NCBI GenBank assembly: GCA_009741485.1
Contig: CM019236.1
Span: 42,863,791 to 42,927,790 of the forward strand
Length of the DNA: 64,000 nt
DNA from: Malurus cyaneus samueli
Taxonomy: Eukaryota > Chordata > Aves > Passeriformes > Maluridae
Reading direction: 5' to 3'
In this document: positions 23,895-58,629 of the stretch, one piece after another
How the letters are laid out: each line of letters begins with the position of its first letter
Numbering within the stretch: the first letter of the stretch is position 1
The notes under the pieces: generated by a model
The model's input: only the letters and a program-made list of their open reading frames with translations
The model's database searches: none
What the model was told of the DNA's origin: nothing
Made by a program: the position numbers and the translations under genes

Positions 23895-23910
23895 GTTTGC
23901 ATATTTGCAT
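23895..23910 (+). promoter_or_regulatory. Tandem octamer motifs of the LPL core promoter
   Basis: GTTTGCAT at 23,895-23,902 is followed immediately by the perfect octamer ATTTGCAT at 23,903-23,910. In mammalian LPL a single octamer at about -46 binds Oct-1 and stands in for a classical TATA box together with the upstream CCAAT element. Applying that spacing puts the transcription start near 23,945-23,955, which is an inference. The extra half-mismatched copy immediately upstream is noteworthy. Confidence 0.8.
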
Positions 23911-23949
23911 ATTGCCCGGGACTACGGGTGGGCAGGAGCGGCGCTGGCC

Positions 23950-24128
23950 GTGCTGGCGCTCTCTGTCCCCGTCCATTGCAGCACTTCTGCGCTGCAGCTG
24001 TGTTTGTTATCACAGTTTTTGAACCAAAAAAAAAAAAGTTTTAATTTTTTTTTGTTTTGTTTTTTTTTTGGTTTTTTTTTTTTTTTTTTTCCCCGCTCCG
24101 AAACTTTGGTGCCGCGGCGGGAGGCGAG
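23950..24128 (+). other. LPL 5' UTR (start inferred)
   Basis: This is the interval between the transcription start inferred from octamer spacing and the ATG, about 180 nt, similar to the human LPL leader length. It contains an A12 run (about 24,027-24,038) followed by several long T runs (about 24,047-24,090, the longest about 20 T). These could pair with the A run or be homopolymer-length errors. No ATG in the LPL frame lies between these T runs and the chosen start. Confidence 0.6.
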
Positions 24129-24192
24129 ATGGGGATGAAGGCGTTCCTGGCCGCCGTGTGCCTCTGCCTGCGCTGGGTGTCTGCTCTCGGCG
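24129..24192 (+). CDS. LPL: LPL exon 1 (signal peptide)
   Basis: It encodes [21 protein letters not shown] and one base of the next codon, followed by the donor GGTGAGTCC. A basic residue, a hydrophobic core and small residues near the end make a typical signal peptide. The ATG at 24,129 is the first in frame after the T-rich leader. A second ATG two codons on (24,135) could also serve and would leave a functional signal peptide. Exon phase matches exon 2. Confidence 0.92.
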
Positions 24193-36100: not shown

Positions 36101-39100
36101 TCTTTTCAGTGTCCTTATACCATGTTCCAACTATGTTAAATCTTTTTAAAAGTAGACTTATGGGTCTGAGGGCCCCAGTGCATAAGCTGAGGCAGACATG
36201 GGATTTGCTTTCACAGCTCTGCAAATGCACAGAAATTTGTGTGTACATCCCTGAACATGGGCTGGCAGGGGATGGAGCTGCAAAGCACCCAAGTCTGTTT
36301 TCTGCTCTGAGGAATGTAAACTGTCTCTGGGTGGTGTTTGTCTGGCTTTTCTGAGAGTTACCAGCACAGGAGGGGACAACCTTTGCCCAGCAGACTGTCC
36401 CGGGGTTTTACCAGCCTGATCACAGAAGGCTATTGTCTCTACAAAAGCTTAAGGCGTTTTTTTTTTCCTTATTTGATCCATCAGAATGATGCAGAAAGGT
36501 GTTTCCTTCTTTGGAGTACAAAAATTCCAGCCTGAATTTTCTTTTTCTGTCCAAGAGTTTCAGGATTTTGTTTGTTTTGTTTTTTCTTATTCTCTTTGCC
36601 ACAGGCCTGAAATCTCCTCAAACAAGACCTTCTCCTTCCTGATTTACACAGAAGTGGATATTGGAGATCTGCTTATGCTGAAGCTGCAGTGGGAAAAAGA
36701 CACCTTTTTCAGCTGGTCAGACTGGTGGACTCCTTTTACATTTGACATCCAGAGAGTCAGAGTGAAATCAGGAGAAACTCAGAAAAAGTAACTTCTTTTG
36801 TTATAAGCTGTACTAATTTTAATTGACAGTGCTTCCGATTTCTGCTATCTCATGAGCTGGTTCAAACATGTTAAGCAGTTACAAATAGGTGCAACGTTGA
36901 TAATTGGGGCTCCAGTGGTATCAAACCACCATTTATATCAGCCAGATTCAGTTGTTTACTTTCACTGCAATTTGCAATTTGTAGTCTTACTCCTACGCAA
37001 TTAATTTGTACCCTACTGTTGTAACTTTAGGTTAGTTACAATATGCAGGCGAGTATCTTCATGAACCAGCACCAGTCACTGTATTTGCAATTTCTCTCAT
37101 CTTTTTTCATGCTGGGTGTTTGCATAAGTTTTGTCACAAAGAGCCTGCTTCAGTGGAGATTTTTAGAAATCCTTCCAAAAGTGTGTTTGCACAAGAAATT
37201 GTTGCTTAGTTAAGCTGGATTTTCTTAGGGGTTGAAAACCTGAATGGTGGGTGAAAAACTGAAACACATGACTGCTTCAGGACATTGCTAATGCGTGAAT
37301 GTTAAAACATCAAAGTCTGNNNNNNNNNNNNNNNNNNNNNNNNNTAGCCCAGAGAGACAGAGGGGTATCTCTTAGTGAATATAATGTCTCATGGTGGGCC
37401 AGAAGATGGTGCCAGACTCTTCCATGATTTCCCATGACAGGATTTGAGGAGCAATGGCCATTACCCAGACAGAGAAATTCCGATGACAACATGAGGGAAG
37501 GACTCCTGATGTTCAGAACTCTGAACAGGCTCCCCAGGAAGTTGTAGGTCCCCTACTCTTGGAAAATTCCAAATCCACCTTCTTGTGTTTCCTGTTCACG
37601 GTGCCTCAGGTGACCCCTCCTTGGAAGGGATTTGAACTAAGTAATCTCCAGACAATCCTCCAACCCCACTATTTTGTGATTTTTGTACATACACAAACCA
37701 AGAGTGGAGTAAGTGATCTTAACAGTCTGCTTTCATGTATGTTCCTCTACACTTGCTTGTATATTCTTCTAAAATTAAAATGTGTGCAAAATGTAGAAAG
37801 AAATTATGGCATCATAGAAAAATAAGGATTCAGGAAAATATTACTGAGTTGTATTAGCCATCATCCAACTCCAAATTGGCCTGAGGGAGCTCAGATTAAT
37901 TCTTTTCCCCTGCATGCAGGCAAGTGAGTTTTATAGAGTTTGGTATTCATCAATCTGTATTTACAAATCCTCTTTCAAAGAATGCATTTATTTCCACTTC
38001 GATTAGTTCAGGGTTATGTAAAGAAGATCTGAGTGTGGTAATAAAATGGTAGGAAACAGAACTCAACATAATGTTTATTTCGTGGACATCTTTGCCTTCA
38101 GTCCAAGTTAGTAAGTGTGTATTAAATGAATGATGAGGTGTTCTCTCAAGGATAAATATTCCTTGTCTCACTCTTAGAATTATTAATATAGGATACAAAC
38201 ACACATATAAAATAATATTATGGGTTTTTTCTGACTAACATAGACTAGCATGAAATTGGATCTTTCCCAGCAAACACATGGCACACATGCAACGACGAAA
38301 ACTCTTTTAGAGAGAGCCTGTGTTCCTGTTCAACAGCACTTGTCTACATCAGCAATGAATAATAGAGAAAAAAAGGTATGAATAAGGTGATTGTTCTGAC
38401 AGGATATGGATCCAAGTCCCCAAGTGTTTATCTGGCACAGAGGAAATCCACAGATTTCTGCTTTTCTTAAATTTTAAGTAGCATGCACATTGCAATGAGA
38501 AGGGAGTTCCATCTGGTCCTTTTTACCGATCAACTTATGGAGAACTCAAACACTCTTTTGTATCCAATACAGTACCTTTTTCTCCGAGTCTGTGAGTTTT
38601 AAACCAATGTGGGGCTTAAGAGAAGCTTAACAGAAAGGCAAGGAAAATGTTGGCAGGACCTTAGATAGAGTGACACTGTCTCCGCTCTGGGGGTGGAGCA
38701 GGGTTGCCTTGCAAAGAGTTACACGAAATTTATTCAGGGTCCTGTGCAGTCATGGACAGGGAGACAGGGCGTGGTAGGAGGAAGGATGCTGAATTCTGCA
38801 AACTTGCCAAAGAGGAATGAAAGGAAGTGGAAAACAGGATTCATCAGCAACTAGGAATAAGTTTGGAGAGAAGGTCATGGAGACTTATAACACACAAAAT
38901 GTCCAAGCATCTGGTCTAAGCTGGGGTAAGAAACACAGTTCTCCATGCTTCGGTTACGTAAAAGCTTCTTCAGGATCTTTGCCAACTTGGTTACATTCTT
39001 GAGAAAATGCTCCCATTGCTTACCCCCACCCTAATGCCCAGAAAATCTTGAAGGCAATGGGTCGACTATCTTGACACCTAAGGGTCTTTCATAGGATCTG

Positions 39101-42100
39101 GCTCAAAAAGTGGCTTGAGAAACAAAATGTCAGGACGAGTCAGTCAGAAAAGCACCACTGAGCAATGAAACATCTCAGAGAGGGTTGCTAAAACACTGAC
39201 AAGAAGCCCAATAAACCTTAATACAGAAGATTGCCCTCTTTTTCGCTCTCCTAATCCTTCCCATGCAAGTTCAAAATATCTCTTCAAATCAGGGGAGATG
39301 AAGACTGGGAAAGGACACCCAATTTTGTGCTGTTGCTTCAGCCTTTTCATTAAAAAAATACAGCCATGAAAAATATGTTTTTTTTTAGTTTACACCAAGT
39401 ATTGGAGTTAAAATATTGTCAAAAGAATTTCCCCAGCATTCCTAATGAGTTTCTCCCAGGTCTTTAAATCGCTGATTTAAAGAGAAAAAATAGAACTACC
39501 AGCAAACGCATGAACACAGCTCTTAAATTAAAAAGGGGGAGAAAGAACATTTTTCATTTTTCATCAGCCTTGTGTAGTTCATTTGGCTTACTCTCCATCA
39601 CTGCTCGTGCTCAGGACATTAGAGAAGTGCGTACTAATTGGAGTCTTTCTGTTCATGGAGCCCTGACCTTGAGTTTCTCTGTCTAAGGCCTGGAAATGAA
39701 ACCAGAGAGGATTAAGATCTCTTACTTTACCCTTGTGCTGAAAACTTCCTACTAAAGGGCAAAAGTTTTGCCAGATAAACAAAAAAATTTGGCTTAATTT
39801 GTTGGGTTATAAATACATAAAAAGGGGGAAATTAGTCATCAGATGAAACATATAAATAATAGCATTCAATTACCTTCCAAGGAATCTGTGGGGGATGTCC
39901 TGGCGGAATAATTTGCTTAAGGCCAAAGGCATTTTTCTTCCCCCCCTTTGGGGGGGGGGGGCTTTTTCCCTTCTTTAATTATTCCCTTTTCTGATATGTG
40001 ATTCTAGTTTTTAAACTTTATTATATCTGCTTTTTATTCTGTAAATCTGGTGATCTTTCATAGCTGGTCATATATATTTTCCTTAGATTAGTTGTTATGG
40101 ACTAAAACATTTTAATGGATACCAAACAGTGTAAAAAAAAAAAATTAACTTTAGGTTACCTAGCCTCTGGGCACACTCCATTTTTCTGGATGTCAAGAAA
40201 CTTAAAATTCAAGAAAGAATGTTTAACTCCTGTTGTGCAAGGTCTTGCTATGTTGTTTTTGCCAATTACGATGGTACCTGCTGCCAAATCAAAGACCCCT
40301 CCTTCCTTCGATGCCTGTTCTTAGAACATTTCTGCTCTCGCTTTTTGCCTCGTTTTGATTTTGTTGGATTTGTCATTCAAAATTTCTGCCGACAGAGTAA
40401 CAAAATTCTCCAACATTTAGATTTCTGTCAAGTCTGCCTGGCTGATCAAGGCTGTCAAGAACAGGACCCAACCATTTTAGCTATTTGTGTTTCTTGCCTG
40501 TGCAGTCTGGCAGCAGCGAGAGGAATGTAAGGATTGGTTGACCATGCCGCTTCAAGCAAGACTCAGCAGGACCTGGAAGGAGTAAAGCACCTGAACAGGG
40601 TTAGGTTGCCACACCAGAGCAGTGAGCTCGACACGGAGAGCATCCTGATATGGCTCCCATTGCCCATGCCTAGGCCTGCAAGAGAGCAAGGAGCAGCGTG
40701 AATTTGCTTGGGATTGTCTTGGTTTCAACCTTCCTAAAAAAGCCCCCATGTGTTACAAATTACTGTGTTATTGTGTGTTGTCCGTCTCTCAGGTAGCTTT
40801 TTTTTTTATTGTGTATGATTTCTTTCTTAACTTTAAGTAGGGTGCGTATTTATATCACTGCAATTATCAGTTTTTCTGTGTCGCCATAAAATAGATGCTT
40901 TTACTTCCAGAGAGGCAGGGAATATTTTGTGAGGAACTCATCCAGTGCTATGTTTAACTAGTGCCTGAGCACATCATGCCTGACAATCACGGCACACAGT
41001 GTTGGAACATGCCTAAGAGTATCAAAAGACAAGAAAGATTGAGCTTGTGCTTGCATTTTAATCTGGTGCTTATGCCAAATGGAACAAAAGTTCTTTCTTG
41101 TGAGAAAAGACATTCAAAAAATACCACATGCCAACTGAAAGTTTTTGCCTAGCCTGAGTGGAGTTTTGATTATGCTCTTACTGAAGCCAGTTGGCCCTCT
41201 CTCTAAGCACAAGACTGGTAGCATTCTCCCTACGTACACCAGTCACCCATTGAGGGTTCTAATCCCAAAATTAAAGTGCAGTCCAAAGGAAGCTCGTGCA
41301 GCACAACTTCTCAGCTTATGGAGCAAGAACAAAAAGCTCCTGAATGAAACCCCAGAGAAAAAAAACAAGGCCTGATACAAGCCTGAGGAATCTGGCAAAA
41401 ACAAAACTTAAGAAGTCTTTTTCAGTGCTTTCTTTTGAAATGTGTGAATTATTCTTAGCACCTTTTTAACTGCTGCTAGCATGTTCACTCCGTTCCTACT
41501 CTTCCTAATTTCTGTATTGGAATGTGCCCTTGTTCACTACTTAGAAGATTCAGGTTATTACGCTAATTGTAGGTACAAAAGCTTCTGGAGTGGAACAATA
41601 TGAAACAGCCCCGCTTCCTGGTCTTTTGAGTACAGTAACATACGACCAGACAGCGTCTAGAGCACTGAATTGTCTCACGGTGGGGTGATGAACAGCGCAA
41701 ATATCCAGGTCATTGCAAGGATGAGACTGATGACATGTGTCAGCTTCCACAGGAAGCCTACAATGAAGGACAGTGTTTATCTCGACGGATGATTGGGAGA
41801 TGACATCATTGGAATTCACTGCACCCCCACATCACACCCGCTGATATCCAGTGGACCCATTTGCATCTGATTTCTGATGGTGGTGCAGTCTGTCTGATGT
41901 TAACTTCGAGCTGTTATGGGAAGGCATGCTGGCGTAGTGAAGCAGAATGAGCACCACACACGATGCCGAAGCATGAGGACAAGCTTGAGTGGGATTTCTG
42001 GCCAAGGATGTCGCCTTCCGCGATCTCTTGTCGATTCCGTGTTCTCCGTGTTGCAGCCACTGGAGAATGCTAATCCCTGTTGATTCACTTATGCATAAAT

Positions 42101-45100
42101 TTGGTGACTTTCCAGATGTGGATACAGGAAGGACTTTGGATTAGGAGACTGTATTTGGAGACAGCAACGATGAGGGAGAAGGATAGTTTTCAGAAATTCT
42201 TGGTCGCTGGGAGTGATGGCACGTGTGATGGGCAGCTGGCGTGTTCAGGCTGTTGACGTTCAGGATTTAGAGTATGCTATGGTTGTGGAATACAGTGCAC
42301 AGAGTATAGGATGAGCTTGCACTGAAAGCGTGCAAGAGACAAAAAGGAAGAAGTACGGGTACAGGGCTGACTGTGAAGTTCTTCCCGTGCTTGGAGCTGC
42401 GAACTGTCGTGGTGAGAGTCTGGGTTGCCGTGAGAACAGGACACGGATGGCACAAGGTGCGTGCTTGCTCATCCAAGGCGAGTGTGAGCATTTGTGTCAG
42501 TAACAGCACAGAAGAGGCAACACGACAATGTAGTATCTGAAGGAGAAGATATGGAACCTATGGATGGAGCGAAGAATTGTTGCTGGCTCCAAAAAATGGC
42601 AGCAGAGCGGTGTTACTCTTGAAAAGAGAGAATGTGAATGCTAGAACATTAAAGAAACTTGAGTCAGGTTTCCTCTCAGCGTTACGAGGTGACGTTGGGC
42701 GTAAAGATGGCGCTTTTTCGTTGTCAGGCTCTTTGCGTTTCGCAGCCAGGAGTGTCCGCTTGCTGTCTGTCCAGCCGCACTTGGCTTGATGGTTGGCGGA
42801 GTCTCGTCCGCGGTCCAGCCGGATCCCGAAACGATAACTGGGAGGGTGAGCGGACATCACCGTCTCTGACGGTGGCGGTGGGCATGGCGAGGCAAGTCAC
42901 GAGACGGGGAAAGAGCAGCAGGGCGCGTGCGTAAAGGTTAGCACAGGAGAAGGACTTGGAGTTCCTGTGCGTCCGACCAGAAAGTATTCTTTGGCCTTAC
43001 CTGAAAACATTAAGTATTGAGCTACTGTTGATGATAATAAGATGAGAGTTCTAGTGGATGTACCCCAGGCCTGTCTGTCCTACAACTGGGAGCCTTTTAT
43101 CCCTTAACCCGACCTGACACAGGGAAAAGCAGTGTCCTGAACACACCACTTGCAGCATTCAACTTCAACTGTCAGATGGATTCTTTCTCTCTCCACTTGC
43201 ATTCCTCAGGGTATCCTACCCTCCTCTCCCCCTCCTCCAGTTCTCCATTCCACTCCATCCCCCCTCCATTGGCCTCTTCAACCATCCATTTTCCGTGGCA
43301 ATAATCGCCCCACTGCCTTGCACAAGGAGTGAAGCTCTGCTCCCATTCGAAAGAAGCCTCGCACCTGGACGGAAGTGAGGAGCTCCCCTAGATCACCTCA
43401 GCTGCTTCTAGATGACCCTAACATGTGTTCACAGTCTCCACATGTGTGTTGTCACCTGCAGTCCTCCTCAAGTTCCAAACTCCTCCCATATCCTTGTGCA
43501 GAGCTGTTGGCATGTGTGACAGAGCAAATTCTGTGACAACCACGTGATGCTCAGGCTGCATGCCCGAAACACATGGGTGAGTGATTTTTCAGAGATGTTA
43601 CTCCTTATAGATAATGGCTGTGTGTGAGGGACTGTGCTTGCCTCCTTACACACAGGACAGACAGCCATCAATTTGCTTAAAGCATGGAAACAAGCATAGT
43701 TCGACAGAGGCCAAAAAAAATTTAAAAATTAGTTAAGACCTTTCAAAATTAAGGACTGCTCTTTGGCTGCTCTTTAAAATGGCGCGAAACTAAAACAACA
43801 ACGCGGTGAAAAAGTACTTCTTTACGATTGATACGTTTGTTTTCACACTGTGTTCCTTTATGTCTTCAAACAGATTTGCATTCCAGAAATGAAAATGGGG
43901 CGATCGAGCAGTAGCAGAAACCACACACTGTTTTTTTTTAGTGGCTCACGTCCAATTCTTCTCATCCAGAGTTCAAGAATAGAGGCTCTGCCCTCACATC
44001 AATTAAGAAGGCATAGCAGAATGTTCATCAAAAGGAAATATGACTTCAGTATCGTTTGAAGTATTAAAAACCATAGATTCTTTCTATACAAACTGAGGAG
44101 TTTGCTAAAAATAAAAAAAAAAAAGTATTAAGCCACTCAGAAACAATCGCAATGAAGTGGCTTTGGGGAAAAAAACTCTGAAGTCTATATACGTAGGAAG
44201 TAGTACACAACTGCCATTATGTGAGACTGTCACAACTTGGCAATAACAACTACCTTTACACTCATAAATATCTTTTACAGCAAAAATAGACATCCCAGAG
44301 CTAAATTCATGTTTCCTTATGAAAAGACTTTCACTATTGTGTCCAAGTTTTAAATTTTTGTAATTGGATCCTCGTATAAGAGCACAGCGTTCCAGATGCT
44401 TTGTTCTGAAGAATTAACTTCTGAAGGAAAATTGCAAGAAAAGTGGAAATCTATAGGGAAGAATCACTTGTTTATTTGGAGCTCAAATGCAGTGGCCATA
44501 CTCCAACCCCTCAGTGACTCGATCACATCTCCTGCGTGTTGATCAAATGTGAAATCACTTAGCATTTCCAGAGCTTTAACTATTGCACAATGGACCATCG
44601 TTTAAGACTTTTTATCCCCATATAGTTAGCATGCTACAGTTGGAAAAGAAACAAAACTGTGCACATAACACATACACTTTTCCTTTGGCTTTAAGGATGG
44701 ATAATGGGAGAATCACCCATCTCACACTGTCTTGCACATCAGAAAAGCAAACACCACATCAGTAAGAGTATCACACTCCCAAGTGTCTCCCTGCAGGCTT
44801 CTACACTCCCACCATCTTTGGTTTACCTTAGAAAGCTAAAAAGGCTATTGGCACCTTCAGCACACTACGAAAAATTATTATACTTACGACAGGAAGCAGA
44901 ATGCCTTCATATACTATTTTGTCAACCACACATGCTAAATTCAGCTGTCCTTCAGGTTTTTGCATAGCACTGCGTGGAACACACCAATCAGCTCCCTGTA
45001 ACTGGCCTCGGCTCCTGCTTCCTGCCTGAATTCCATCTGTGGCAGGAAACTAAGCAAACTCCTATGCGCACCACAAGGCCAAAAAATAAACTGAGGTGAT

Positions 45101-46538
45101 TACTGGCAGTCAAATTCCAGGCACAGGGAAGCATGGACATCCCTGTCACATATCAAGGGGTTCACTGCACTGAAAACTGCACACAGAGCCCTAGCGCCTA
45201 TGACTTGACACTGGTGTCGAAAGCAAGAAACGTGACGTTTGGCATACATGACGCAAGCAGCAGGAGAGGGTGGAGGGGGGAAATATCTGTTTCTGCTATT
45301 TCTGGATAGCCTCAGTTCCTCTGCAGTTCTATATTCACAGTGTTGATCTAGACATGACTAAAGCACAGATAAATAATAAATGTCTGCGTAGGACACGGCT
45401 GCTCTCTCCTACTGCTGTGACTTATCCAGGGCAAGCGCATAGAGCTCTAAATCTTAAAACGATACTACCTATTGCTAGCAGCACTCGGCATCTACCCCCC
45501 ATAAAAACATTCAGCAGACCATAAACTAAAAAATCCATACCCCATAGTTAATCAGTCCCTGACCTTCTAAATACACCCCAGCCAAGGATGGTTTTTTTTC
45601 CACTGAGAACCTACTCACTTGCTAAAACACACCTTGAAAATTATGAACTCTCTCCACTGAACTGCTGAAAATTCAGTTAGCTAGACGAACAAAACTTGTC
45701 CCGTTCAAAACTACTCCTGAAAAGAACAAAAAAAAAAACCAACTAACCAAAAAAAACCCAAACAAACACAAAAACAACAACAACAAAAACATACAGGTCT
45801 TTGTTTCTTTTCAATAGAATACTAAAAAATGCTGTAAGGATCTGATACCAAGAACCTTGTCACAGGCACACGATTAAGCAAAATTACTTATTTTTTACCA
45901 CTACCAAACTTTGGTAAGGTTTGTGCAGGTCTCTTTCTGTTTAACTATTTAATGTCTTATAGTTAACTTGTAATCTGAGACTTCCTTGATAAAAGTCTCC
46001 TAAATTAACTAGGATACGCAGCAAAAATCCAGCAGCAGATAAATATTTCTATATATTGATTCCCTGAACATCCAGTCCACAGGGAGAACAGACTCTTCCC
46101 TCGCCCAGTGCTAAAATCATTGCTTGTCAACTTAAGCAGATCCATTCAGCAGATATCGCTTTAGAGCTTCTGGAGCGTAGAGAAAAAAAAATGAAAATAA
46201 AGTGTAGGACATGTAAATATAGTTCTCTTTTGCTTATTTTAAGAATTAAGATTTATAAAATCCCTGCTTAACAGGAAAAAGAAATTGTATGCTTGAGAAA
46301 AAAATATCTAACAATAGACATATAAAATGACAATGAAAATAATATAAAAATATAAATACGAGAAGATATAATTAATAAATAAAATCAAGATGTAGTAACA
46401 GAATAAGAAAAAAACAAAAAAAAAAAAAAAAAAGAATCTACAAGAGCAAAAAAAAAACTACACCACCAAAAGTCAATTGCCAAACACGATGTAAAGGCAG
46501 TACAAATGGACAATTTATTTATAGACGAAGAAAAAACG

Positions 46539-46614
<76 letters not shown>

Positions 46615-49594
46615 GGATTCAAGTAATAAGAAGTATCCCCAATAAGACCAAATCACACACAAAGACTGAACTAAATAAAATTAACACTTTCTCTATCTCA
46701 GACTTCAGTGGATAAGTTCCAAACATGTGTCGCCCAAGCTTCCTCTGGGTTGGAAAATTATTGATAAATTAAAGTGCACAAAAGCTACCGAACAGAGCAG
46801 AATCTCTGATCCATAGAAGGAAAATCTCAGGAAATCATCATCAGAAGGGCAGTGTGCGAAGGAGGGGACCTGCAGTTATCGACTGGCTCCACTCCTGTTA
46901 CCAAGTCGCCAGAGGAGGCTCTGAACTGACTCAGTACGGAATTCTGAGTTGTTCTGAGCTACAGAGGTAAGTGTAGGGCATCTTAAGACAGAGGCATGCT
47001 TCCTCTTTGTGTCTGTGAACCCTCCCTAACCCCCTTATATGCTTTTCTGACATGCTGAACCCACACCAGGAGACAAATTAAGAGGCTTTTACTGCCAATA
47101 GCGCCATAAGCAAATCCTCTTGTGCGTTGCTGACTTCTGAGCCTTGAAAGACCAGTGCACGAAATCAATTAATGGGGAATTTATACCACTAATCAATAAA
47201 CCCAATGTATTACTCATACCCGTCCGCCTTCCTGTTGGCGGGCTGCTCCGAGCATTTCACGAATACTCTTGCCTTTCCTCCTTATGAGACCGTTGAGTCC
47301 ATCTCGAAACGAACACGACGTTGTGGGAATAAATATGAAAAATTACCGACTGAGCCAAACACCCCTTTTTAATTTAGAAAGTAAGGACTTGCTTGGAAAC
47401 AGCTTTTACATTGTATGTGGCACTAATTTGCAGCCTGTGAGAAGTATTTCGAACAGAGATCCATGACAAAAAGAAACGCTGTGCAAGAAAAGCTGGTAAA
47501 TGAATGTATGCTGGGCATTCAAACCATAGCCAACTTTCATTGATCCTCTGCGATAAATCTTTTGTGGCTAAGACAGACAGAATCACCACAAAGTCTCCTC
47601 GATCTTTATTTACCCCAGTTTTTACAGGATTTGTTTGTCAGGTGATCATGAACTTGAAGAAAGCCTTTAGCTCAAATGTTGCAAATGAAGTAGGTTGCAA
47701 TTAGAAAACCTGATGCACCTTTTTTCTAGCTTATCAGTACTTCCCCTTATTTGTTCAGCTCGATAAGCTGCTCTTTTGATCAAGTGACTGACCTATTGAT
47801 TCAAAAGAGGAACTTATTGTGTGTTTAACTACACACAGGAACAATACTCTGTTCTGGGCCCATGGTTCTGCAAAAGATTCATGTTAGGAATAGTGAGTAT
47901 TTCAAAAGATTCATTGCCAAAGCATTTTGTTCAGATGAATCTTTTGAAATACTCATATTCACTAAACATGAGATCTGTTTGCAGAACATGGGCCCAGAAC
48001 AGAGTATGTGTGTCCTGTGTGTAGTATAGTAAACAATAATAAGTTCCTTCTTTGAATAAATAGGTCAGTCACTTGATCAAAGAGCAGTTATCAGAGCTGA
48101 ACAAATACAGGGGTGGGGGAAGTACTGATAAGTAGAAAAAAGTGCTCAGGTTTTCTGGAAATTGCAACCTACTTCATTTGCAAACATTTGAGTGACTATG
48201 GCTTTCTTCCAAGTTCATTCACCTGACAAAAAAATCCTGTAAAAACTGGGGTAAATAAAGATCGAGGAGACTTTGTGGTTGAACTTCTGCTGTCTTAGCC
48301 ACAAGAAGATTTTATGCAGAGGATCACTGAAAGTTATGGCTATGGTTTGATGCCCATGCATAATTCATTTACCAGCTTTTCTTGCACAGCGTTTCTTTTG
48401 TCATGGAATTCTCTTTCGAAAATAACTTTCTCACAGGCTTGCAAAGTAGTAGTGCCCCACATGACAATGTATAAAGACTGTTTCCAAGCACCAGTCTTCT
48501 TTCTAAGATTAAAAAGGGGTGTTTGGCTCAGTCGTGTGAATTTTTCCAATATTTATTCCACAGAGTCGTGTTCTGTTCTCGAGATGGCACCTCACGTCTC
48601 AGTAAGGGAGAAGAGGCAGCAGTATTCGTGAAATGCTCGGAGCAGCCCGCCAACAGGAAGAGAGGAGGGTATGAGTAATACTATTGGGTTTATTGACATT
48701 TGAGTGGTAATAAAACTTCCCCATTAATTGATTTGTGCACTGGTCTTCTCAAGGCTTCAGAAGTAGCACAGCACAGAGGTTTGCTTATGGCAGCTTTTGC
48801 AGCTTAAAAGCTCTTAATTTGCTTCTCCTGGTGTGGTTGCTAGCATGTCAGAAAAGCAGTATAAGGGTGTTAGGGAGGGTTGCAGACACAAGAGGAAAGC
48901 ATGCCTCTGTCTTAAGATGCCCTACACTTACCCTTAGCTGCAGAACACTCAGAATTCCGTACTGAGTCAGTTCAGAGCCCTCCCTCTGGCGAGCTGGTAC
49001 AGGAGTGGAGCAGTCATATGCAGGTGCCCTCCTTTGCACACTGCCTTCTGATGAGTGATTTCCTGAGATTTTCCTCTCTATGGATCAGAGATTCTGTCTT
49101 TGTTCGGTAGCTTTTGGTGCACTTTAATATTTTTATCAATAATTTTTCCAACCCAGAGGAAGTGTGGGGACAATGTTTGGACTTTATCCACTGAAGTCTG
49201 AGATAGAGAAGTGTTATATTTATTTTAGTTCAGTTGCTGTGTGTGAATGGTCTAATGGGGACACTTCTAGACTGATACCCAGCTCTGCATAAAAATGCAC
49301 ATGTACTGGCCTTGACTCTGGGGCAATGACCTGGGGAGGCCTTGAGACCTCTGTGTCTCAATCTGACACACTGATATATAAAATACCCGATATAAAATCA
49401 AGCAGAAGCTAGGAGAAGCCCAAGCATACAATTTCTTTTCCTGTTAAGCAGGGATTTTTAAAATCTTAATTCTTAAAAATAAGACAAGAAGAAACAAGTA
49501 TCTTACATGTCCTCACAACCTTTATATTTCATTTTTTTTTCTCTACAGCTCCAAGAAAGCCTCTAAAGAGAATTCTGCTGATGAATCTGCTTAA
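24129..49594 (+). CDS. LPL: Lipoprotein lipase, 10 exons (exon 7 damaged)
   Basis: LPL is a secreted triacylglycerol lipase that works on the capillary wall, hydrolysing chylomicron and VLDL triglyceride. Joined exons: 24129-24192, 30886-31052, 31170-31349, 31946-32057, 33939-34172, 34412-34654, 35716-35831, 36605-36787, 48564-48668, 49549-49594. The product would be 484 residues if exon 7 had the family length (human 475). Visible features are a signal peptide (1 to about 21), N-glycosylation at N64 and N380, catalytic Ser153 in GYSLG, Asp177 and His262, lid between C237 and C260, a basic heparin-binding stretch at 300-327, the convertase site RTKR (315-318), and the lipid-binding WSDWW loop (411-415). 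Each aligns with human at a constant offset of six. Exons 3, 4, 5, 6, 8 and 9 match human lengths exactly. Exon 7 is five bases short and shifts the frame. Intron 8 is inflated by an inverted artefact. The gene is probably intact in the animal. Confidence 0.97.
24193..30885 (+). other. LPL intron 1
   Basis: A 6.7-kb intron with GT-AG ends. Apart from a 30-bp direct repeat at 26,131-26,194 and a short (CA)n near 28,206-28,218, no repeat family or embedded gene was recognised. The longest open frame within it (minus strand, 27,733-28,299) has no recognisable domain. Confidence 0.85.
26131..26194. repeat. 30-bp direct repeat, two copies, in LPL intron 1
   Basis: A unit beginning AGCTTCTRAACTGGTGCCCA occurs at 26,131-26,160 and 26,165-26,194 with a single mismatch and a 4-bp separator. 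It looks like a recent small tandem duplication or an assembly stutter. Confidence 0.85.
30886..31052 (+). CDS. LPL: LPL exon 2
   Basis: It encodes the mature N-terminus and the first beta strands of the lipase domain, residues 22-77 of the model, ending at the HGWT motif that follows the oxyanion-hole region. It contains the N-glycosylation site N64-H-T. The first cysteine pair of the family corresponds to C48 and C61. The acceptor is the tandem CAGCAG at 30,883-30,888, so exon starts at 30,886 and 30,889 are both in frame and differ by one alanine. Donor ACG/GTAAGA. Confidence 0.96.
31053..31169 (+). other. LPL intron 2, only 117 bp
   Basis: A very short GT-AG intron with a T-rich tract before the acceptor (AACCAACAG). 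Both flanking exon ends fall on codon boundaries (phase 0). Confidence 0.93.
31170..31349 (+). CDS. LPL: LPL exon 3
   Basis: 180 nt, the same length as human exon 3, encoding residues 78-137 of the lipase fold, including the VDWL and [10 protein letters not shown] segments. The acceptor is CAACAG and the donor is GAG/GTAAGA. The reading frame is open and phase 0 at both ends. Confidence 0.97.
31350..31945 (+). other. LPL intron 3
   Basis: A 596-bp GT-AG intron with no recognised repeat or embedded gene. Confidence 0.92.
31946..32057 (+). CDS. LPL: LPL exon 4 (nucleophile elbow)
   Basis: 112 nt, identical in length to human exon 4. It encodes the GXSXG nucleophile elbow [13 protein letters not shown] with catalytic Ser153 of the model (human Ser159 in precursor numbering). 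Acceptor TCTGCAG, donor ACTG/GTAAGA, ending in phase 1. Confidence 0.98.
32058..33938 (+). other. LPL intron 4
   Basis: A 1.88-kb GT-AG intron with no recognised repeat family or coding sequence. Confidence 0.9.
33939..34172 (+). CDS. LPL: LPL exon 5 (catalytic Asp, lid start)
   Basis: 234 nt, identical in length to human exon 5. It begins by completing the Gly codon before [10 protein letters not shown], which carries catalytic Asp177. It continues through [20 protein letters not shown] and ends inside the lid loop that begins at C237. Phases are 1 at both ends. Confidence 0.98.
34173..34411 (+). other. LPL intron 5
   Basis: A short 239-bp GT-AG intron (donor GAG/GTGAGT, acceptor TTTTTTCAAG). 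Nothing else recognised in it. Confidence 0.92.
34412..34654 (+). CDS. LPL: LPL exon 6 (catalytic His, heparin binding)
   Basis: 243 nt, identical in length to human exon 6. It closes the lid at C260 and provides catalytic His262 in [10 protein letters not shown]. Four cysteines at 285, 296, 299 and 304 match the family disulfides. The basic run from R300 through R327 is the heparin/GPIHBP1-binding region and includes RTKR (315-318), the site where furin-type convertases cleave LPL between its two domains, a cut promoted by ANGPTL3 and ANGPTL4. The exon ends in phase 1 before GTAGGT. Confidence 0.98.
34655..35715 (+). other. LPL intron 6
   Basis: A 1.06-kb GT-AG intron ending in a long T run (about 35,689-35,705) just before the exon 7 acceptor TTCCAG. 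No repeat family or coding sequence was recognised. Confidence 0.9.
35716..35831 (+). CDS. LPL: LPL exon 7, frame broken (5 nt short)
   Basis: This exon starts the PLAT/C-terminal barrel domain. Acceptor (TTCCAG) and donor (CACACT/GTGAGT) are intact, but it is 116 nt where the human exon is 121. Read from exon 6 it hits TGA at 35,781-35,783. The stretch ending GTLDESEN is clearly homologous but in another frame. The family pattern returns if one base is missing near each of 35,722, 35,729, 35,753, 35,760 and 35,792, which is exactly the 5-nt deficit and restores the phase needed by exon 8. Scattered one-base deletions in a single exon of an otherwise clean gene point to uncorrected sequencing errors. 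A true null allele is less likely because loss of LPL is severely harmful in mammals. Confidence 0.9.
35832..36604 (+). other. LPL intron 7
   Basis: A 773-bp GT-AG intron with no recognised repeat or coding sequence. Confidence 0.9.
36605..36787 (+). CDS. LPL: LPL exon 8 (Trp lipid-binding loop)
   Basis: 183 nt, identical in length to human exon 8. It encodes most of the C-terminal beta-barrel, with N-glycosylation site N380-K-T and the tryptophan loop WSDWW (411-415) that contacts lipoprotein surfaces. Donor CAGAAAAA/GTAACT, ending in phase 2, which fits exon 9 at 48,564 and nothing in the nearer inverted arm on this strand. Confidence 0.97.
36788..37319 (+). other. LPL intron 8, proximal genuine part
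   Basis: Intron sequence from the exon 8 donor to the 25-N gap. No feature recognised. The real intron probably continues on the other side of the inverted artefact, close to 47,935. Confidence 0.75.
37320..37344. other. 25-N gap
   Basis: Exactly 25 undetermined bases. A round placeholder of this size is used by some long-read gap-filling tools when both sides are extended but do not meet. The left arm of the inverted repeat begins at the next base. Confidence 0.99.
37345..37685 (+). mobile_element. Mirrored copy of a CR1 3' end (left arm)
   Basis: This is the degraded reverse complement of 58,202-58,556 and so contains the CR1 3' tail in the opposite orientation. It ends near the sequence CTATTTTGTGATTTTTGT, the complement of the tail repeats. 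It is not an independent insertion if the left arm is an artefact. Confidence 0.85.
39940..39961. repeat. C7-T3-G12 homopolymer block in the left arm
   Basis: A run of seven C, three T and twelve G. The matching place in the right arm (about 55,850-55,920) has ordinary mixed sequence instead. This looks like base-calling noise. Confidence 0.85.
46132..46174 (-). pseudogene. Degraded antisense copy of LPL exon 10 (left arm)
   Basis: The reverse complement resembles the coding part of exon 10 (49,549-49,594) with several indels and substitutions. Fragments such as CTTAAGCAGA around the stop codon are preserved. It is part of the inverted left arm and is very unlikely to be a biological pseudogene. 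Confidence 0.85.
46300..46613. repeat. A-biased garbled block ending in a 74-base poly-A
   Basis: Sequence here is strongly A-rich and ends with 74 consecutive A at 46,539-46,612. The corresponding right-arm interval (about 49,230-49,430) is about half to two-thirds as long, has normal composition and no poly-A. This suggests low-quality inserted base calls rather than a retroposon tail. Confidence 0.85.
47221..47321 (-). pseudogene. Degraded antisense copy of LPL exon 9 (left arm)
   Basis: The reverse complement matches exon 9 (48,564-48,668), including a perfect block around GGCGGGCTGCTCCGAGCATT, but indels break the reading frame several times. It is part of the inverted left arm. Confidence 0.9.
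47915..47934. other. Loop at the centre of the inverted repeat
   Basis: TGCCAAAGCATTTTGTTCAG separates GAGTATTTCAAAAGATTCAT (47,895-47,914) from its exact reverse complement (47,935-47,954). This is the turning point of the 21-kb palindrome. No long-read hairpin adapter sequence is visible in it. Confidence 0.92.
48564..48668 (+). CDS. LPL: LPL exon 9
   Basis: 105 nt, the same length as human exon 9. It encodes residues 435-469, including VVFCSRDG and FVKCSEQP with a conserved cysteine pair. In human the stop codon lies in this exon; here the frame stays open through RKRGG into exon 10. Acceptor TTCCACAG, donor GAGG/GTATGA. Confidence 0.96.
48669..49548 (+). other. LPL intron 9
   Basis: An 880-bp GT-AG intron in the right arm, ending in a T-rich tract before CTCTACAG. 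No feature recognised. Confidence 0.88.
49549..49594 (+). CDS. LPL: LPL exon 10, coding part (avian C-terminal extension)
   Basis: It completes the split Gly codon and adds [14 protein letters not shown] before TAA at 49,592-49,594. In mammals exon 10 is entirely untranslated. A similar lysine/serine-rich tail is known from chicken LPL, so this supports a bird and confirms the exon 9 donor. The role of the tail is not known to me. Confidence 0.92.
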
Positions 49595-51785
49595 GTGACA
49601 AGAACAAAGATTTTTCACACTGGGGAGGAGAAGAGTCTGTTCATCCCTGTGGACTGGATGTTCAGAATCAAATATATAGAAATATTTATCTGCTGCTGGA
49701 TTTTTGCCTGCTATTCCTAGTTATTTAGGACTCTTATAAGAGTCTCAGCATACAAAGTTACTAACTATAAAGATACATTATCCAAATAGTTAAAAACAGA
49801 AAGAGACCTGCAAAACAACTTACCAAAGTTTGGAGTGATGAAAGAAATAAGTAATTTTGCTTAATCGTTGTGCCTTGTGACAAGGTTTCTTGATATCAGA
49901 TCCTTTACAGCAATTTTTTAGTATTTATTGAAAAGAAACAAAGACCTGTATGTGTTTTTGTGTTGTTTTTGTTTTGTTGGGGGTTTTTTTTTATGTTAGT
50001 TGGTTTTTTTGTTCTTTTCAGGAGTAGTTTGAAACGGGACAGATTTTTTCTGTCTCAGCTAACTGAATTTTCAGGCAGTTCAGTGGAGAGAGTTCATAAT
50101 TTCAAGTGTGTGTTTAGCAAGTGAGTAGGTATCCATGTGGAAAAAAAAACCATCTTTGCCTGCGTGTATTTCTAGAAGCGTCAGGGACTGACTTAATATG
50201 GGGGAATGAAATTTTTTAGTTTATGGTTCTGAATGTTTTTTAATGGGGGGTAGATGCCAGTGCTGCTTAGCAATAGGTATGATGTTTTAAGATTTAGAGC
50301 TCTATGCCGCTTGCCCTGGGATAAGTCACAGCAGTAGGAGAAGGCAGCAATGCCAGTGTCCTACGCAGACATTTAATATTTTATCTGTGCTTTCAGTTGT
50401 CTAGCCTTCAACACTGTGAATAAGGAACTGCAGAGGAACTGAGCTACCAGAAAATGCAGGAAACAGATATTTCCCCCCCACCTCCACCCTCTCCCTGCTG
50501 CTTGCGTCATGTATGCCAAAACTGTCACAGTTTCTCTGCTCTTCGACACCAAGTGTCAGTCATGCAGCTGAGTGGCTCCTGTGTGCAGTTTTCAGTGCAA
50601 GTGAACCCACTTGATAGCTGACAGGGATGCTCATGCTTCCCTGTGCTGGAATTGTGACTGCCAGTAATCCACCTCAGTTTATTTTTTGGCTGTGGTGCAG
50701 CACTAGGAGTTGCTTAGTTTTCTGCCACAAGATGGAATTCAGCAGGAAGCAGGAGCCGAGCCAGTTACAGGGAGCCTGATTGTGTGTTCCACAAGAAACA
50801 GTGCTCTGAAAAACACTGAGACACTGAAATTAGCCATGCTGTGAGTTGACAAAAATAGGTATATTGAAGGCATTCTGCTTCCCCATTCGTAAGTAATATA
50901 TAATTTTCCTAGTGTGCTGAAAGGTGCAATAGCCCTCTTTTAGCTTTCTAAAGGATAAACAAAATGGTGGGGAGGTAGAAGGCCTTGAAGGGAGACACTT
51001 GGGGAAGTGTGATACTCATTACTGATGCTGGGTGTTGTAGTCTTTTCCTGCATGTGCAAGACAGTGTGGAGATGGTGATTTCTCCAGTATCATCCCATCT
51101 TAAAAGCAAAGGAAAAAATGTATGTGTTTATGTGCACAGTTTGTTTCCTTTTTCCAACTGTAGCTGCTACTATATTTGGGGATAAAAGTCTTAAACAGTG
51201 CAATATGTTGGAATATTAATAGCTCTGAAATTGCTCACATGTGATTTCACATTTGATCAAACTACAGCAGAGATGTGATGAGTCACTGAGGGTGGGGTTG
51301 GGTATTGAGCCACTGCATTTGAGACCTCCAAAAATAAAAACAGTGATTTATTCCCTATAGATTCCACATTTTCTTGCAATTTTCTCTTAAGAGTTTAATT
51401 CTTCAGAAACAAAGCATCTGGACAGCTGTGCTCTTAATACAGGATCAATTACAAACACATTTAAAACTTGGACACAAAATAGTGAAAGTTCTTTTCATAA
51501 GGAAACATGATTTAGCTCTGGATGTTATTTATTAGCTGTAAATAAGATATTTATGAGTGTAAAGGTAGTTTGTATATATTGCCAAAGTTGCTGACAGTCT
51601 CTACATTAATGCAGTTGTGTAGTACTAATCCTGTATATAGCATTCAGAGGTTTTTATCAACAAGCCACTACATTGCATTGTTCTGATGTGGTTAATACTT
51701 TTTTTTTTTTTTTTTTGAAAACTCCTCAGTTTTGTATAGAACAGAAATCTATGGTTTTAATAAAACTCTCAAACTGATACTGAAG
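49595..51785 (+). other. LPL 3' UTR (end inferred)
   Basis: T-rich non-coding sequence follows the stop codon without another recognisable exon. AATAAA hexamers occur at 51,333-51,338 and 51,759-51,764. Using the second gives a UTR of about 2.2 kb, similar to the roughly 2-kb mammalian exon 10 UTR. A low-complexity G/T tract occupies about 49,950-50,016 and a poly-T run lies near 51,699-51,716. Confidence 0.65.
51759..51764 (+). promoter_or_regulatory. Candidate LPL polyadenylation signal AATAAA
   Basis: A canonical hexamer within TTTTAATAAAACTC about 2.17 kb past the stop codon. An earlier hexamer at 51,333-51,338 is an alternative and would give a shorter transcript. Neither is confirmed by transcript data. 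Confidence 0.55.
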
Positions 51786-54700
51786 TCACTACTTTCCTTT
51801 TGATGAAACAATCTGCTGTATACCTTCCTTATATGTGAGGGCCAGAGCCTATTCTTGAACTCTGGACTGAGAAGATTGCTGAGACACTAAAAAAAAAGGC
51901 AGTGTGTGGTTTTCTGCACTGCTGCTCCCCCATTTCATTTTGGGAAATGCAAAAATCATGTATTAAGACATCAAGGAACCACAGTGTGAAAAAAAGTATC
52001 CCACATCGTAAAAGAAGTAACTTTTTCACCCGCAGTTTGTTGTTTTCAAGTTTCAGGCCATTTTAAGAGCAGCCAAAGAGCAGTCCTTATTTTGAAAGGC
52101 TCTTAAAATTTTTTTAAATTTTTTTTTGGCCTATGTCAGAACTATGCTTGTGCTCCATGCTTTAGCAAAATTGAGCTGTTCTGATCCTGTGTGTACAGGA
52201 GGCAAGCACCAGTCCCTCACCACCACCATTTCTTAAGGAAGTAACAATCTCTGAAAAATCACTTCCACCCATGTGTTTCGGGTGCAGCTGAGCTCAAGAG
52301 TGGTTGTCACCAGAACAGTTTGCTCTGTCACACATAGCAAAGCTCTGCACAGGCAATGGGAGGAGATTGCTGGAATTGAGGAGGACTGCAGTGACACACA
52401 CACACACATGTGGGACATGGCACACATGTCAGGGGTAATTAGAGCAGCTCTGAGGTGATCTGGGGAGCTTCCATCACCCTTTCCCAGTCCAAGGTGACGG
52501 CTCTTTGAAAGGAGCAGAGCTTCACTCCTTGTGAAAGCAGTGGGCGATTATGCCACGGAAAATGGATGGTTGAAGAGGCCAAATGGAGGGAGGGATGGAA
52601 GAGGGAATGGGAGGAACTGGAGGAGGAAGGGAAGAGGAGGGTAGGGAGTACCCTGAGGGAATCAGTGGAAGAAGAAAGAATCCAATCTGCAAACTTGAAG
52701 GCTTGGAAATGCTGACAGTGAGTGTTCTAAGGACACTGCTCTTTCCCCTGTGTCAGTGTTCGGGTTAAGGGAATAAAAGGACTCCTACAGTTGTAGGACA
52801 AGACAAGGCCTGGGGTCACATCTCCTAAAAACATCTCATTCTTTTATCATCACAGTAGCCTCAATACACTTAATGTGTTATTAGGTAAGGCAAAGAAATA
52901 GCTTTTGGTGGAGCACAGGAATCCAAGTCTCTTCTGTGTACATTTAGAGCCGTCCCTGTGCTCCTTTACTCTTGTGACTTGCTCTGCAATGCCCAGCCAC
53001 GTCAGAGAAGGTGATGATCCCTGCTCACCCTCCCAGTTATGTTTGGGATGGGCTGGAGGGAAGAGACTGCCCAACAATCAGCCAGTGGGTGGACAGACAG
53101 AAAGGGACACTCTTGGCTGGAAAGAAAGAGTGAAGAAAAAGGATTTTAGCCAACGTACCTGTAAGATGAGGAAACCCTGACTCAAGTTTTTAATGTCTAG
53201 ATTTCAATTTCTTTTTTAAGAGTAATACTTAGCTCTGTGAAATTTTTGGAGCCAGCAACAATTTTGCTCTCCATAGGTGTCTCCATACTTTCTCCATTCA
53301 GATACAATTGTGTGTTTGCTCTTTTGTGTGTTATGAACAAAATGTCAAAGCTTGCTTCTTGGGATGAGCAAGAGATTGTGCATGTGTTGTTTCTAAAGGT
53401 CAAAACCAGATATTCAACAGAAGTTGCAGTAAGAGGGAAGAATTAAAGTAGCTGTAGTATTTTCCTTTTTGTTTGCAGCTTTCAGTGCAAGGCTCTCTAT
53501 ATTGTGACTGTCAATACAAACATAGCCATATTAAAATCCTCAAGTCCAAAAGAATCAACCCAGCTGCTATCAAGTTGCCATCACTCAGGAAAGATATTTT
53601 GAAAGATATTTCCTTCTCCTCATGGTGTGTCTCCCCAGAAAAGTCTTCTAGTCAAATGTCTTCTGTAGCACATCTGGAAAGTCACAAATTTATGCATAAG
53701 TGAATAAAGGGATTAGCATTCTCCAGTGGCTGAAGGAGAACAAGGAAATGAGAAGAGGAAGGGAAGGGAACCATTTGGCAGAACATCCCATATAAAGCTT
53801 GTCCTAACAATGCTTCTGCATCCGTGTGTGGTGCTATCTCTGCTCACAACGCTCAGCATGCTTCCCTAAACCAGCTCAAGTTAACTCAGACAGAACAATG
53901 CACCCACATCAGAAATGCAGATGCTAAATGGGTCCACTTTGGATATAGCAGGTGTGAGTGTGGGGGTGCAGTGAATTCTCAATGATGTCATCTCCCAATC
54001 ATTCCTGTCAGATAAACACCATGTCCTTCATTGTAGGCCCTTCCTGTGGGAAGTGACACAATGTCATCAGTCTCACTCCTTGCCAATGACACTGGAGAGT
54101 ATTTGCTGCTGTTCATCACCCCACCGTGTAGAACAATTCAGTGAGCTCTAAGACAGCCTGTCTGGTCGTATGTTACTGTCCTCAAAAGAGCCAGGAAGCG
54201 AGGGCCTGTTTCATATTGTTCCACCTACCAGAAGCTTTTGTACCTACAATTAGCTGTAAACCTGAAATCTTCTAAGTAGTGAAACAAGGGCATTCCAAAT
54301 ACAGAAATTAGGAAGAGTAGGAACAGAGTGACATGCTACAGCAGGTTAAAAAGGTGCTAAGAATATTCACACATTTTCAAAAGAAGCACTGAAAAAAGAC
54401 TTCTTAAGTTTTGTTTGCCAGATCCTCAGGCTTTGTTCAGGCCTTGCTTTTTTTTCTCTGGCAGGTTTCATTCAGGAGCTTTTGTGTTTGCTCCCATAGC
54501 CTGAGAAGTTGCTGCTGCACGAGCTTCCCTTTGGACTCACTTCTAATCTTTGGGATTAGAAACCTCTCCAATGGGTGACTGTGTACGTAGGGAGGATGCT
54601 ACCAGTCTTGTGCTTCCAGGAGAAGGGCCAACTCTGCCTTCAGTGAGAGACATAATCAAAACTCCACTCAGGCTAGGAAAAAATCTTTCAGTTGGCATTG

Positions 54701-57700
54701 TGGTATTTTGAATGCTTTTCTAACAAGAAAACCTTTTCCATTGTGGCATAAGACCCCAGATTTAAAATGCAAGCACAGCTCAATCTTTCTTGTCTTTGAT
54801 ACTCTTAGGCAGTGTTCCCAAACTGTGTGCCCGTGATGTCAGGCCATGATGTGCTCAGGCACTAGGTTAAACATTAGCACTGGATGAGTTCTCACAAATA
54901 TTCCCTGCATCTCTTGGCAGTAAAAACATTCCTATTTATGGGACACCAGAACAAACTGCATAATTGCAGTGATATAAATAGCACCCTATTAAAGTTAAAA
55001 GAAAGAAATCCATACACAATAAAAAAAAAAAAGCTACCTGAGAGAAGGACATACACACAATACACAGTAATATTTAACACCTGGGGGCTTTTTTAGGAAG
55101 GTGTGAAACCAAGACAATCCCAAGCAAATTCCACTGCTCCCCTTGCTCTTCTTGCAGGCAGGCATGGGCAATGGGAGCCATATCAGGGATGCTCTCCTGT
55201 GACTCGAGCTCACTGCTCTGTGTGGCACACTAACCACATGTCTCAGGTGCTTTACTCCTTCCAGGTCCTGCTGAGTCTTGCTCTGAAGCCAGGCATGGTC
55301 ACACCAATCCTTACATTCCTCGCTGCTGCCAGACTGCACAGGCAGAAACAGCATAGCTAAAATGGTTGGGTCCTGGTTCTTGACAGCCTTGATCAGCCAG
55401 GAGACTTGACAGAAATCTAAATGTTGGAGAATTTTGTTACCTGTCGGCAGCAATTTTGAATGAAATCAGAACAAAATCAAAACAAGAGGCAAAAAGCGAG
55501 AGCAGAAATGTCTAAGAAAAGGCAAGAAGGAAGGAGGGGTCTTTGATGTTGCAGCAGGTAATATGTAATATGGCAAAAACAACATAGCAAGACTTGCACA
55601 ACAGGACTGTTAAACATTCTTTTGATTTTAAGTTCTCTTGACATCCAGAAAATGGAAGTGTGCACCAGAGGCTAGGTATACCTTGAAGTATTTTACACTG
55701 TGTTGGTATCCATTAAAAATGTTTAGTCCATAACAAGCTAATCCTAAAGGAAAATATATATAGACCAGCTATGGAAAGATCACCAAGATTACAGAATAAA
55801 AAGCAAGATATAAATAAAGTTTAAAACCTAGAAGCACATATTCAGAAAAAGAGGAATAAATTAAGAGGAAGAGGAAAAGCAAGGAAGAAGAATGCTGCCT
55901 TAGCAAATTATTCCGCCCAGGACATCCACCCACAGATTCTTGAAGGTAATTGAACTATTATTTATATGTTCATATGACTAATTTTCCCCTTTTTAATGTA
56001 TTTATAACCCAACAAAATTAAGCCAAATTTTTTGTTTATCTTGGCAAAATTTTGCCCTTTAGTAGGAAAGTTTTCAGCACAAGGGTAAAAAGTAGAGAGA
56101 TCTTAATCTCTCTGGTTTCATTTCCCAGGCCTTAGACAGGAAACTCAGGTCAGGCTCCATGCAACAGAAAGACTCCCATTAGTACCAGCCTTCTCTTAAT
56201 GTCCTGAGCACAGAGCAGTGATGGAGTAAGCAAATGACTACACAATGCCTGACTGAAAATATGAAAAATGTTTGCTTTTCTCCCCCCTTTTTTATTTATA
56301 GAGCTGTGTTCATGCGTGTTGCTGTAGTTCTTTGTTTTCCTTTTAACATCAGCGAATTTAAAGACCCTGGGGAGAAATCAAGGAAATGCTGGGGAACATT
56401 CTTTTGACAATATTTTTACTCCCATACTTGGTGTAAAACTAAAAAAAAACATATTTTCATGGCTGTAATTTTTTTTAATGAAAGGCTGAAGCACACAGCC
56501 ACAAAATTGGGTGTCATTTCCCAGTTTCTCCCCTGAATTTGAAAGCAGAATTTTGAACTTGCATGGGAAGGATTAGGAGAGGAAAAGAGGGCAGATCTTC
56601 TGTATTAGGTTTATTTGGGGCTTCTTGTCAGTGTTTTAGCAACCCTCTCTGAGATGTTTCAATTGCTCAGTGGTGCCTCTTCTGACTGACTCGTCCCTGA
56701 CCATTTTGTTTTCAGCCACTTTCTGACAGGATCCCTATGAAAGCACCCTTTAGGTGTCAAGATAGTCGACCCATTGCCTTCAAGATTTTCTTGGGCATCT
56801 TAGGGGTGGGGGTAAGTCACATGGGAGCATTTTCTTCCAGAATGTAACCAAGTTGGCAAAGATCTCTGACAAGAAGCTTTTACGTAACCAGAGAGGAGAA
56901 CTTGTGTTTTCTTACCAAGCTTAGACCAGATGCTTGGACATCTTTGTGTAGGTATGACTAAGTCTCCATGACCTTCTCTCCAAACTTATCCTAGCTTGCT
57001 GATGAATCCTGTTTTCCACTTCTCCTTTCATTCCTCTTTTGGCAAAGTTTGCAGAATTCAGCATCCTTCCTCCTACCAACGCCCCTGTACTCCCTGTCCC
57101 ATGACTGCACAGGACCCTGATAAATTTCTGTGTAACTCTTTGCAAGGCTACCCTGCCTCCACCCAGAGAGGAGACCAGTGTCAGCTACTTCTCTAAGGAT
57201 CCTGCAACATTTTCTTGCCTTTTCTGTTAAGTTCTCTTTAAGCCCAGCATGTGGTTTAAAACCCTCACAGATTCGGAGAAAAAGGTACTGTATTGAGATA
57301 CAAAAGAAGTGTTTGAAAGTTCTCCATAAGTTGATCAGAGTAAAAGGACCCAGATGTGAAACTCCCTTCTCATTGCAGTGCATGTACTTAATTTAAAGAA
57401 ATAGCAGAAATCTCCTGTTTGGACTTTCCTCTGTGCCATGATAACATCTTGGGGACTTTGGATCCATATCCTGTAGAAACAATCACCTTTATTCCATATC
57501 CTGTTTTCTCTATTATTCATTGCTGATGTAGACACAGTGCTGTTGAACAGGAACACAGCTCTCTCTACAGAGTTTTGTGTGTGCATGTGTGCATGTGTTG
57601 CTGGGAAGATCCAATTTTACATGCTAGTCTAGTGTTAGTCAGAAAAAACCCATAATATGTATTTTATATAGCTGTGTTTGTATCCTATATTTAATAATTC

Positions 57701-58201
57701 TAGAGATGAGACAAGGAATATTTAATCCTTGAAGAGTAACACCTCCATCATTCATTTAAGTAACACACTCTATATTGGACTGAAGGAAAGACTGTCCACA
57801 AAATAAACATTATGTTGAGTTCTGTTTTCCTACCATTTTACCACACTAGACTTTCTTACATTACATGAACTAATAGCAAGTGGAAATAAATGCAATTGTT
57901 TGTAAAAGAGGATTTGTAATACAGATTTGATGAATACCCAAAACTCTATTAAAACTCACTTGACTGCAGGGGAAAAGAATTAATCTTGAGCTCCCTACAG
58001 GCCAAGTTTGGAGATTGATGCATTTGAGCCTAATACAACTTCAGTAATATTTTTCCTGAATCCTTATTTTCTATGATGCAAATAATTTCTACATTTTGCA
58101 CACATTTTAATTTTAGAAGAATAATACAAGCAAGTAGTGGAGGAACATCACATGAAATAGAGATGTTAAGATCACTTACTCCCACCTCTTGGTTTGTGTA
58201 T
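51786..58201. other. Downstream intergenic DNA
   Basis: No gene or repeat family was recognised between the inferred end of LPL and the CR1. In mammals SLC18A1 lies downstream of LPL, but no transporter-like exon was seen. A short (CA)n lies near 52,395-52,409. Confidence 0.65.
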
Positions 58202-58570
58202 GTCACAAAATCACAAAATAGTTGGGGTTGGAAGTGATGTCTGGAGATTACTTAGTTCAAATCCCCTTCCAAGGCAGGGTCACCCTGAGCAGGTGACACA
58301 GGAACACAGAAAGGTGGGATTTGAATATTTCCAGAGAGGGAGACCCTACAACTTCCCTGGGGAGCCTGTTCCAGAGTTCTGACACCATCAGAGAAGTCCT
58401 TCCTCATGTTGTCATGGAATTTCTCTTGTTCTGGGTAATGGCCATTGCTCCTCATCCTGTCACTGGGAAACATGGAAGAGTCTGGCACCATCTTCTGGCC
58501 CCACCATGGAGATTTATATTCACTAATGAGATACCCCTCTCGTCCTCTCTGGGCTAGGCCCCGCTCTCCA

Positions 58571-58629
<59 letters not shown>

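Follow-up and report, generated by a model that had tools for sequence, protein, structure and literature searches.

The window analysed here, 64,000 nucleotides of Malurus cyaneus samueli (GenBank assembly GCA_009741485.1, contig CM019236.1, positions 42,863,791 to 42,927,790 of the forward strand), carries the gene LPL, the 3' half of which is involved in a long inverted repeat. Exons were placed with a human LPL chain first and then with the canary and blue tit LPL sequences that were found by search (Table 1). The closest relatives of a 312-residue piece of the encoded protein are passerines, with 96-98% identity among the best 120 of 3,823 matches listed. The left arm of the repeat is bounded by a gap of 25 undetermined bases (25 N), and the right arm includes exon 9 and the coding end of exon 10. 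Because exon 8 is found ahead of the gap and exon 9 inside the right arm, both the gap and the left arm sit in LPL intron 8, and the order of the exons places the right arm in its correct orientation. A first-pass annotation had proposed that a contig was extended with an uncorrected long read which had doubled back. Our analysis leads to the same reading: with a probability of about 0.9, the left arm is an assembly artefact, namely a fold-back long read that was joined to the end of a contig and left without correction.

Table 1 Features of the LPL region, with positions counted from the first letter of the window.
Feature	Position	Strand	Remarks
LPL exon 1, coding start	near 24,129-24,215	+	
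LPL exons 2-6	between 30,888 and 34,653	+	
LPL exon 7	35,715-35,832	+	4 frameshifts
LPL exon 8	36,606-36,788	+	last exon ahead of gap
25-N gap	37,320-37,344		bounds left arm
Left arm	37,345-47,914	-	noisy reverse complement of right arm; most likely returning half of fold-back read
Insertion burst	41,995-43,000	+	133/157 inserted bases G on + strand (C on complement)
Broken antisense copy of exon 10 coding end	46,135-46,174	-	left arm; 1 frameshift
Insertion burst	46,282-46,765	+	181/195 inserted bases A on + strand (T on complement)
Broken antisense copy of exon 9	47,219-47,322	-	left arm; 2 frameshifts
Spacer	47,915-47,934		20 bp, at centre; random-like scores against SMRTbell and nanopore adapters
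Right arm	47,935-58,556	+	clean copy, judged genuine genomic sequence
LPL exon 9	48,562-48,669	+	right arm; no frameshift
LPL exon 10, coding end (avian C-terminal tail)	49,550-49,591	+	right arm; no frameshift
(TC)41 microsatellite	58,574-58,654	+	begins 18 bp past outer end of right arm

Self-BLAST of the window returned two inverted matches, both with E = 0. The larger one joins 37,345-46,295 to 49,421-58,556 with 85.5% identity, and the other places 46,629-49,268 onto itself with 87.0% identity; a part of the left arm with many insertions separates the two. When the whole arms (10,570 bases on the left and 10,622 on the right) were aligned globally, they were 84.4% identical, and 84.35% with re-weighted scores. 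The best inverted matches in five order-1 Markov sequences were only 16-26 bp, and a chance origin of the match between the arms is therefore excluded. The second half of the repeat is the reverse complement of the first, the arms are separated by a 20-bp spacer, and the left arm starts on the base directly after the N run. The claim that the left arm is the reverse complement of the right arm over its full length was thus correct, and the positions given for the arms, the spacer and the N run were exact. The outer end of the arm, labelled a CR1 end in the first-pass annotation, is presumably one, judging from the CR1 3' end. The outer end of the right arm precedes the (TC)41 tract by 18 bp and could be the end of a molecule, of a read or of an earlier contig.

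The left arm contains 180 CpG dinucleotides and the right arm 55, or 122 and 50 when the insertion bursts described below are set aside. In bins of about 500 bp, CpG density averages 17.1 per kb in the left arm versus 8.5 elsewhere in the window. Models of order 3 and order 5, trained on the sequence outside both arms, gave higher bits per base for the left arm in 20 of 22 bins, the two exceptions being a homopolymer-burst bin and the short last bin. Exons 9 and 10 are free of frameshifts in the right arm, and the left arm holds frameshifted antisense copies of both, as had been noted before. Because of the CpG excess, the higher bits per base and the frameshifted exon copies, the left arm is the noisy copy; we judged the right arm to be genuine genomic sequence. 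The right arm stays clean as far as the centre of the palindrome. Assuming 13.4% noise, one noisy arm is favoured over two near the centre by about 29:1 over the first 50 columns, by about 490:1 over 75 columns and by about 180:1 over 100 columns, which disfavours noise in both arms at this place.

The differences between the arms are sequencing noise and not divergence. In the first global alignment a single base made up 430 of the 528 insertion runs and 573 of the 683 deletion runs, which bears out the earlier remark that most differences are one-base indels. The re-weighted alignment gave 529 insertion and 684 deletion runs (1,213 indel runs) versus 174 mismatches. Transitions account for 53 of these mismatches, a proportion compatible with an expectation of one third (P = 0.24) and incompatible with one of 60% (P = 3e-15). 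A diverged natural inverted duplication was rejected, as the spectrum has no excess of transitions and no predominance of substitutions over indels. Differences are as frequent in exons (25 of 161 columns, 15.5%) as elsewhere (1,759 of 11,240, 15.6%), so there is no sign of selection, and the deletion rate in the left arm follows no clear trend with homopolymer length. Inserted bases are concentrated in bursts. Thirteen bins of 150 bp hold at least 12 inserted bases each, and eight of the 13 are dominated (at least 75%) by a single letter, which is T in two neighbouring bins and C in six (counts in Table 1). Such one-letter bursts would be accounted for by colour-channel noise of single-molecule real-time (SMRT) sequencing. 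Taken as a whole, the left arm carries the raw errors of a single read. A third insertion-rich patch of the arm, at 39,780-40,250, is mixed, with runs of C and G.

When the left arm and the spacer are left out, the distance from exon 8 to exon 9 falls from 11,773 bp to 1,183 bp (including the 25 N), in agreement with the earlier estimate that intron 8 is inflated by about 10.6 kb; if the arm is an artefact, the intron appears about ten times too long. Intron 8 of human LPL measures about 1 kb. A known human LPL variant is located at position 495 of intron 8, which sets the length of that intron at 495 bp or more (PMC6171722).

The spacer was scored against sequencing adapters whose letters were taken from PMC5218489 and PMC12886913. 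No SMRTbell adapter was found in these 20 bp (score 12, matched by 38% of random 20-mers of the window) and no nanopore adapter (score 13, reached by 21% of random 20-mers). Both scores are far under those of simulated noisy pieces of the respective adapters, and 99% of the simulated SMRTbell pieces score at least 20. A PacBio adapter that went unrecognised is thus not supported. Since the spacer scores are random-like, an overlooked adapter fits less well than a missing one or a strand jump. The possibility that the spacer is a copy of other sequence in the window was also rejected, as it has no further 12-mer match and only a few 10-mer matches there.

We suggest the following course of events. 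A long read, most likely a PacBio continuous long read (CLR), would have covered about 10.6 kb in the 3' half of LPL in the leftward direction, switched to the other strand of its template molecule at about 47,935 and then gone back to the end of that molecule. The switch may have been caused by an adapter missing at that end or by a strand jump of the polymerase. With this read, an assembler or gap filler would have extended the clean contig that starts at about 47,935 at its left end, and the returning half of the read would thereby have become new intron 8 sequence. Accurate reads would not have corrected this sequence, since they map to the clean right arm. An alignment filter of the PBJelly type would let through a fold-back read whose end lies at a contig edge. 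If the assembly was instead made from long reads, the same pattern would result from a fold-back read at the end of a contig, which would also explain why clean sequence reaches the fold. A fold-back origin fits the polarised noise, which is one-sided from the centre outward, the indel-dominated spectrum without transition bias, the one-letter bursts and the shorter intron that remains after removal of the arm. The LPL palindrome is most likely not a real feature.

Several observations weigh against this reading. It would be a coincidence that the clean sequence stops at the fold, had a random fold-back read been added to a short-read contig that already existed. The spacer has no recognisable SMRTbell or nanopore adapter, and no unusual hairpin potential was detected at either site folded, the fold itself and the end of the left contig (z 0.15 and 0.2); the ordinary folding energy there lends no support to a self-folding site. 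With the nine bins of at least 18 insertions left out, the left-arm error count covers 9,272 bases and 117 mismatches, and deletions (753, 8.1%) outnumber insertions (408, 4.4%). The share of mismatches, about 10%, is below the shares given for both platforms in PMC5553090, where insertions are described as the leading error of PacBio subreads and mismatches make up 37% of their errors, compared with 41-48% for Oxford Nanopore Technologies (ONT) reads. The left arm is dominated by indels and has one-letter bursts, which point to a PacBio CLR, yet it has more deletions than insertions outside the bursts. On balance, PacBio (CLR) is probably the platform of the left-arm read.

Reads of this type have been described for both platforms. 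As reported in PMC6218980, 0.5% of the reads of an unamplified PacBio control looked palindromic, which was ascribed to false positives and to missed or missing SMRTbell adapters. The palindromic reads treated there with Pacasus consist, like the LPL repeat, of a read followed by its own reverse complement and are rich in errors; the LPL case differs in that it sits in an assembled scaffold and has a spacer without adapter remnant. For ONT genomic DNA, the description of Breakinator gives fold-backs in about 0.55-0.6% of reads (PMC12870357). In such reads, as here, the second half returns to the place of the first on the opposite strand, in many cases with little or no intervening sequence. 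The few mismatches, the one-letter insertion bursts and the absence of a clear homopolymer trend in the LPL left arm fit nanopore fold-backs less well, whereas its excess of deletions fits them better. Missed adapters and polymerase strand jumps are also handled as PacBio read artefacts by the patch step of MARVEL, according to PMC6304105.

The gap next to the left arm could be of the kind that PBJelly treats. To extend the ends of contigs, this program is described as using reads whose alignments come within 25 bp of a gap, and it has a default gap threshold of 25 N (PMC3504050). Sequence inserted by it had a mean identity of 88.6-95.2% in the simulations of PMC8848313, and overfilled gaps have been reported in bird assemblies (PMC7757076, PMC9883250). 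Common to the LPL locus and to overfilled or extended PBJelly gaps would be an open gap into which long reads have extended the contig ends, and the 25 N. Overfilled gaps are presumably given exactly 25 N by PBJelly; a published rule to this effect for any gap filler was not found in a limited literature search, which is no proof of its absence. The window has another gap, of 628 N at 20,755-21,382, which is unlike the 25-N gap in size; the assembly therefore mixes at least two kinds of gap.

A clean end at the fold is what would be expected of a real, very young palindrome, because the collapse of such a palindrome would yield it. The 3' half of LPL would then have undergone an inverted duplication, each arm being 10.6 kb or longer and the spacer 20 bp, by which exons 9 and 10 were duplicated antisense in intron 8; short reads would have collapsed the arms into a clean contig ending at the centre, and one raw long read would have filled the left arm. 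The raw noise is silent on whether an underlying arm exists, and two arguments of the first-pass annotation are weakened accordingly. The noise does lie in the left arm, as was argued, but this shows only that the arm is unpolished; the arm does start at the 25-N gap, but such a start is also expected if a raw read filled a collapsed real palindrome. Neither argument is decisive. If the palindrome were real, so young an inverted duplication within a metabolic gene would be striking. It would, however, require the remarkable presence of two antisense exon duplicates inside LPL, and its arms would have to be nearly identical, as the differences between them have no evolutionary signal. Removal of the arm, moreover, leaves a short intron of about 1.2 kb, similar to the human one. 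Palindromic read artefacts are common, at about 0.5% of reads as reported in PMC6218980 and PMC12870357, and a real palindrome seems improbable to us.

The repeat could also have arisen with no fold-back, if a gap filler or long-read scaffolder set an ordinary raw read in the wrong orientation beside the contig. The spacer is no adapter, and a short-read contig could have ended at the outer end of the arm, just before the (TC)41 tract, in which case the arm might correspond to the full length of one contig. Extension nevertheless requires that the read sequence adjacent to the contig is already the reverse complement of that contig, which an ordinary read is not, and the right arm has the correct orientation by exon order; we regard such a misplacement as very unlikely. 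The broken antisense exon copies would be compatible with an old inverted duplication whose left copy has decayed, but this is scarcely credible given that indel runs exceed mismatches about sevenfold, that transitions occur at their random proportion, that CpGs have increased rather than decayed and that one-letter insertion bursts are present.

Read as a fold-back artefact, the locus is ordinary as biology and useful as a warning for assemblies. A single fold-back read can lengthen an intron by about 10.6 kb and create false antisense exon copies together with a false palindrome, and such an artefact escapes polishing because accurate reads prefer the clean copy. Assemblies could be scanned for its signature, a long inverted repeat against a short N gap in which one arm has excess CpG and indel-dominated differences.

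Eight of the nine LPL exon pieces that were tested outside the left arm are free of frameshifts. The exception is exon 7, located 1.5 kb left of the gap, which needs four frameshifts against canary LPL and agrees with it at 30 of 41 residues. The first-pass statement that all broken copies are in the left arm is thus right for exons 9 and 10 and wrong for the gene as a whole. The state of exon 7 suggests a second patch of uncorrected long-read sequence in LPL. The LPL record of the blue tit has unrelated residues where exon 7 belongs, so that exon 7 may pose assembly problems in more than one bird. At the other end of the gene, a CpG-rich stretch (23,383-24,882, with 38-78 CpG per kb in three bins) extends over the first LPL coding exon and is likely a promoter CpG island.

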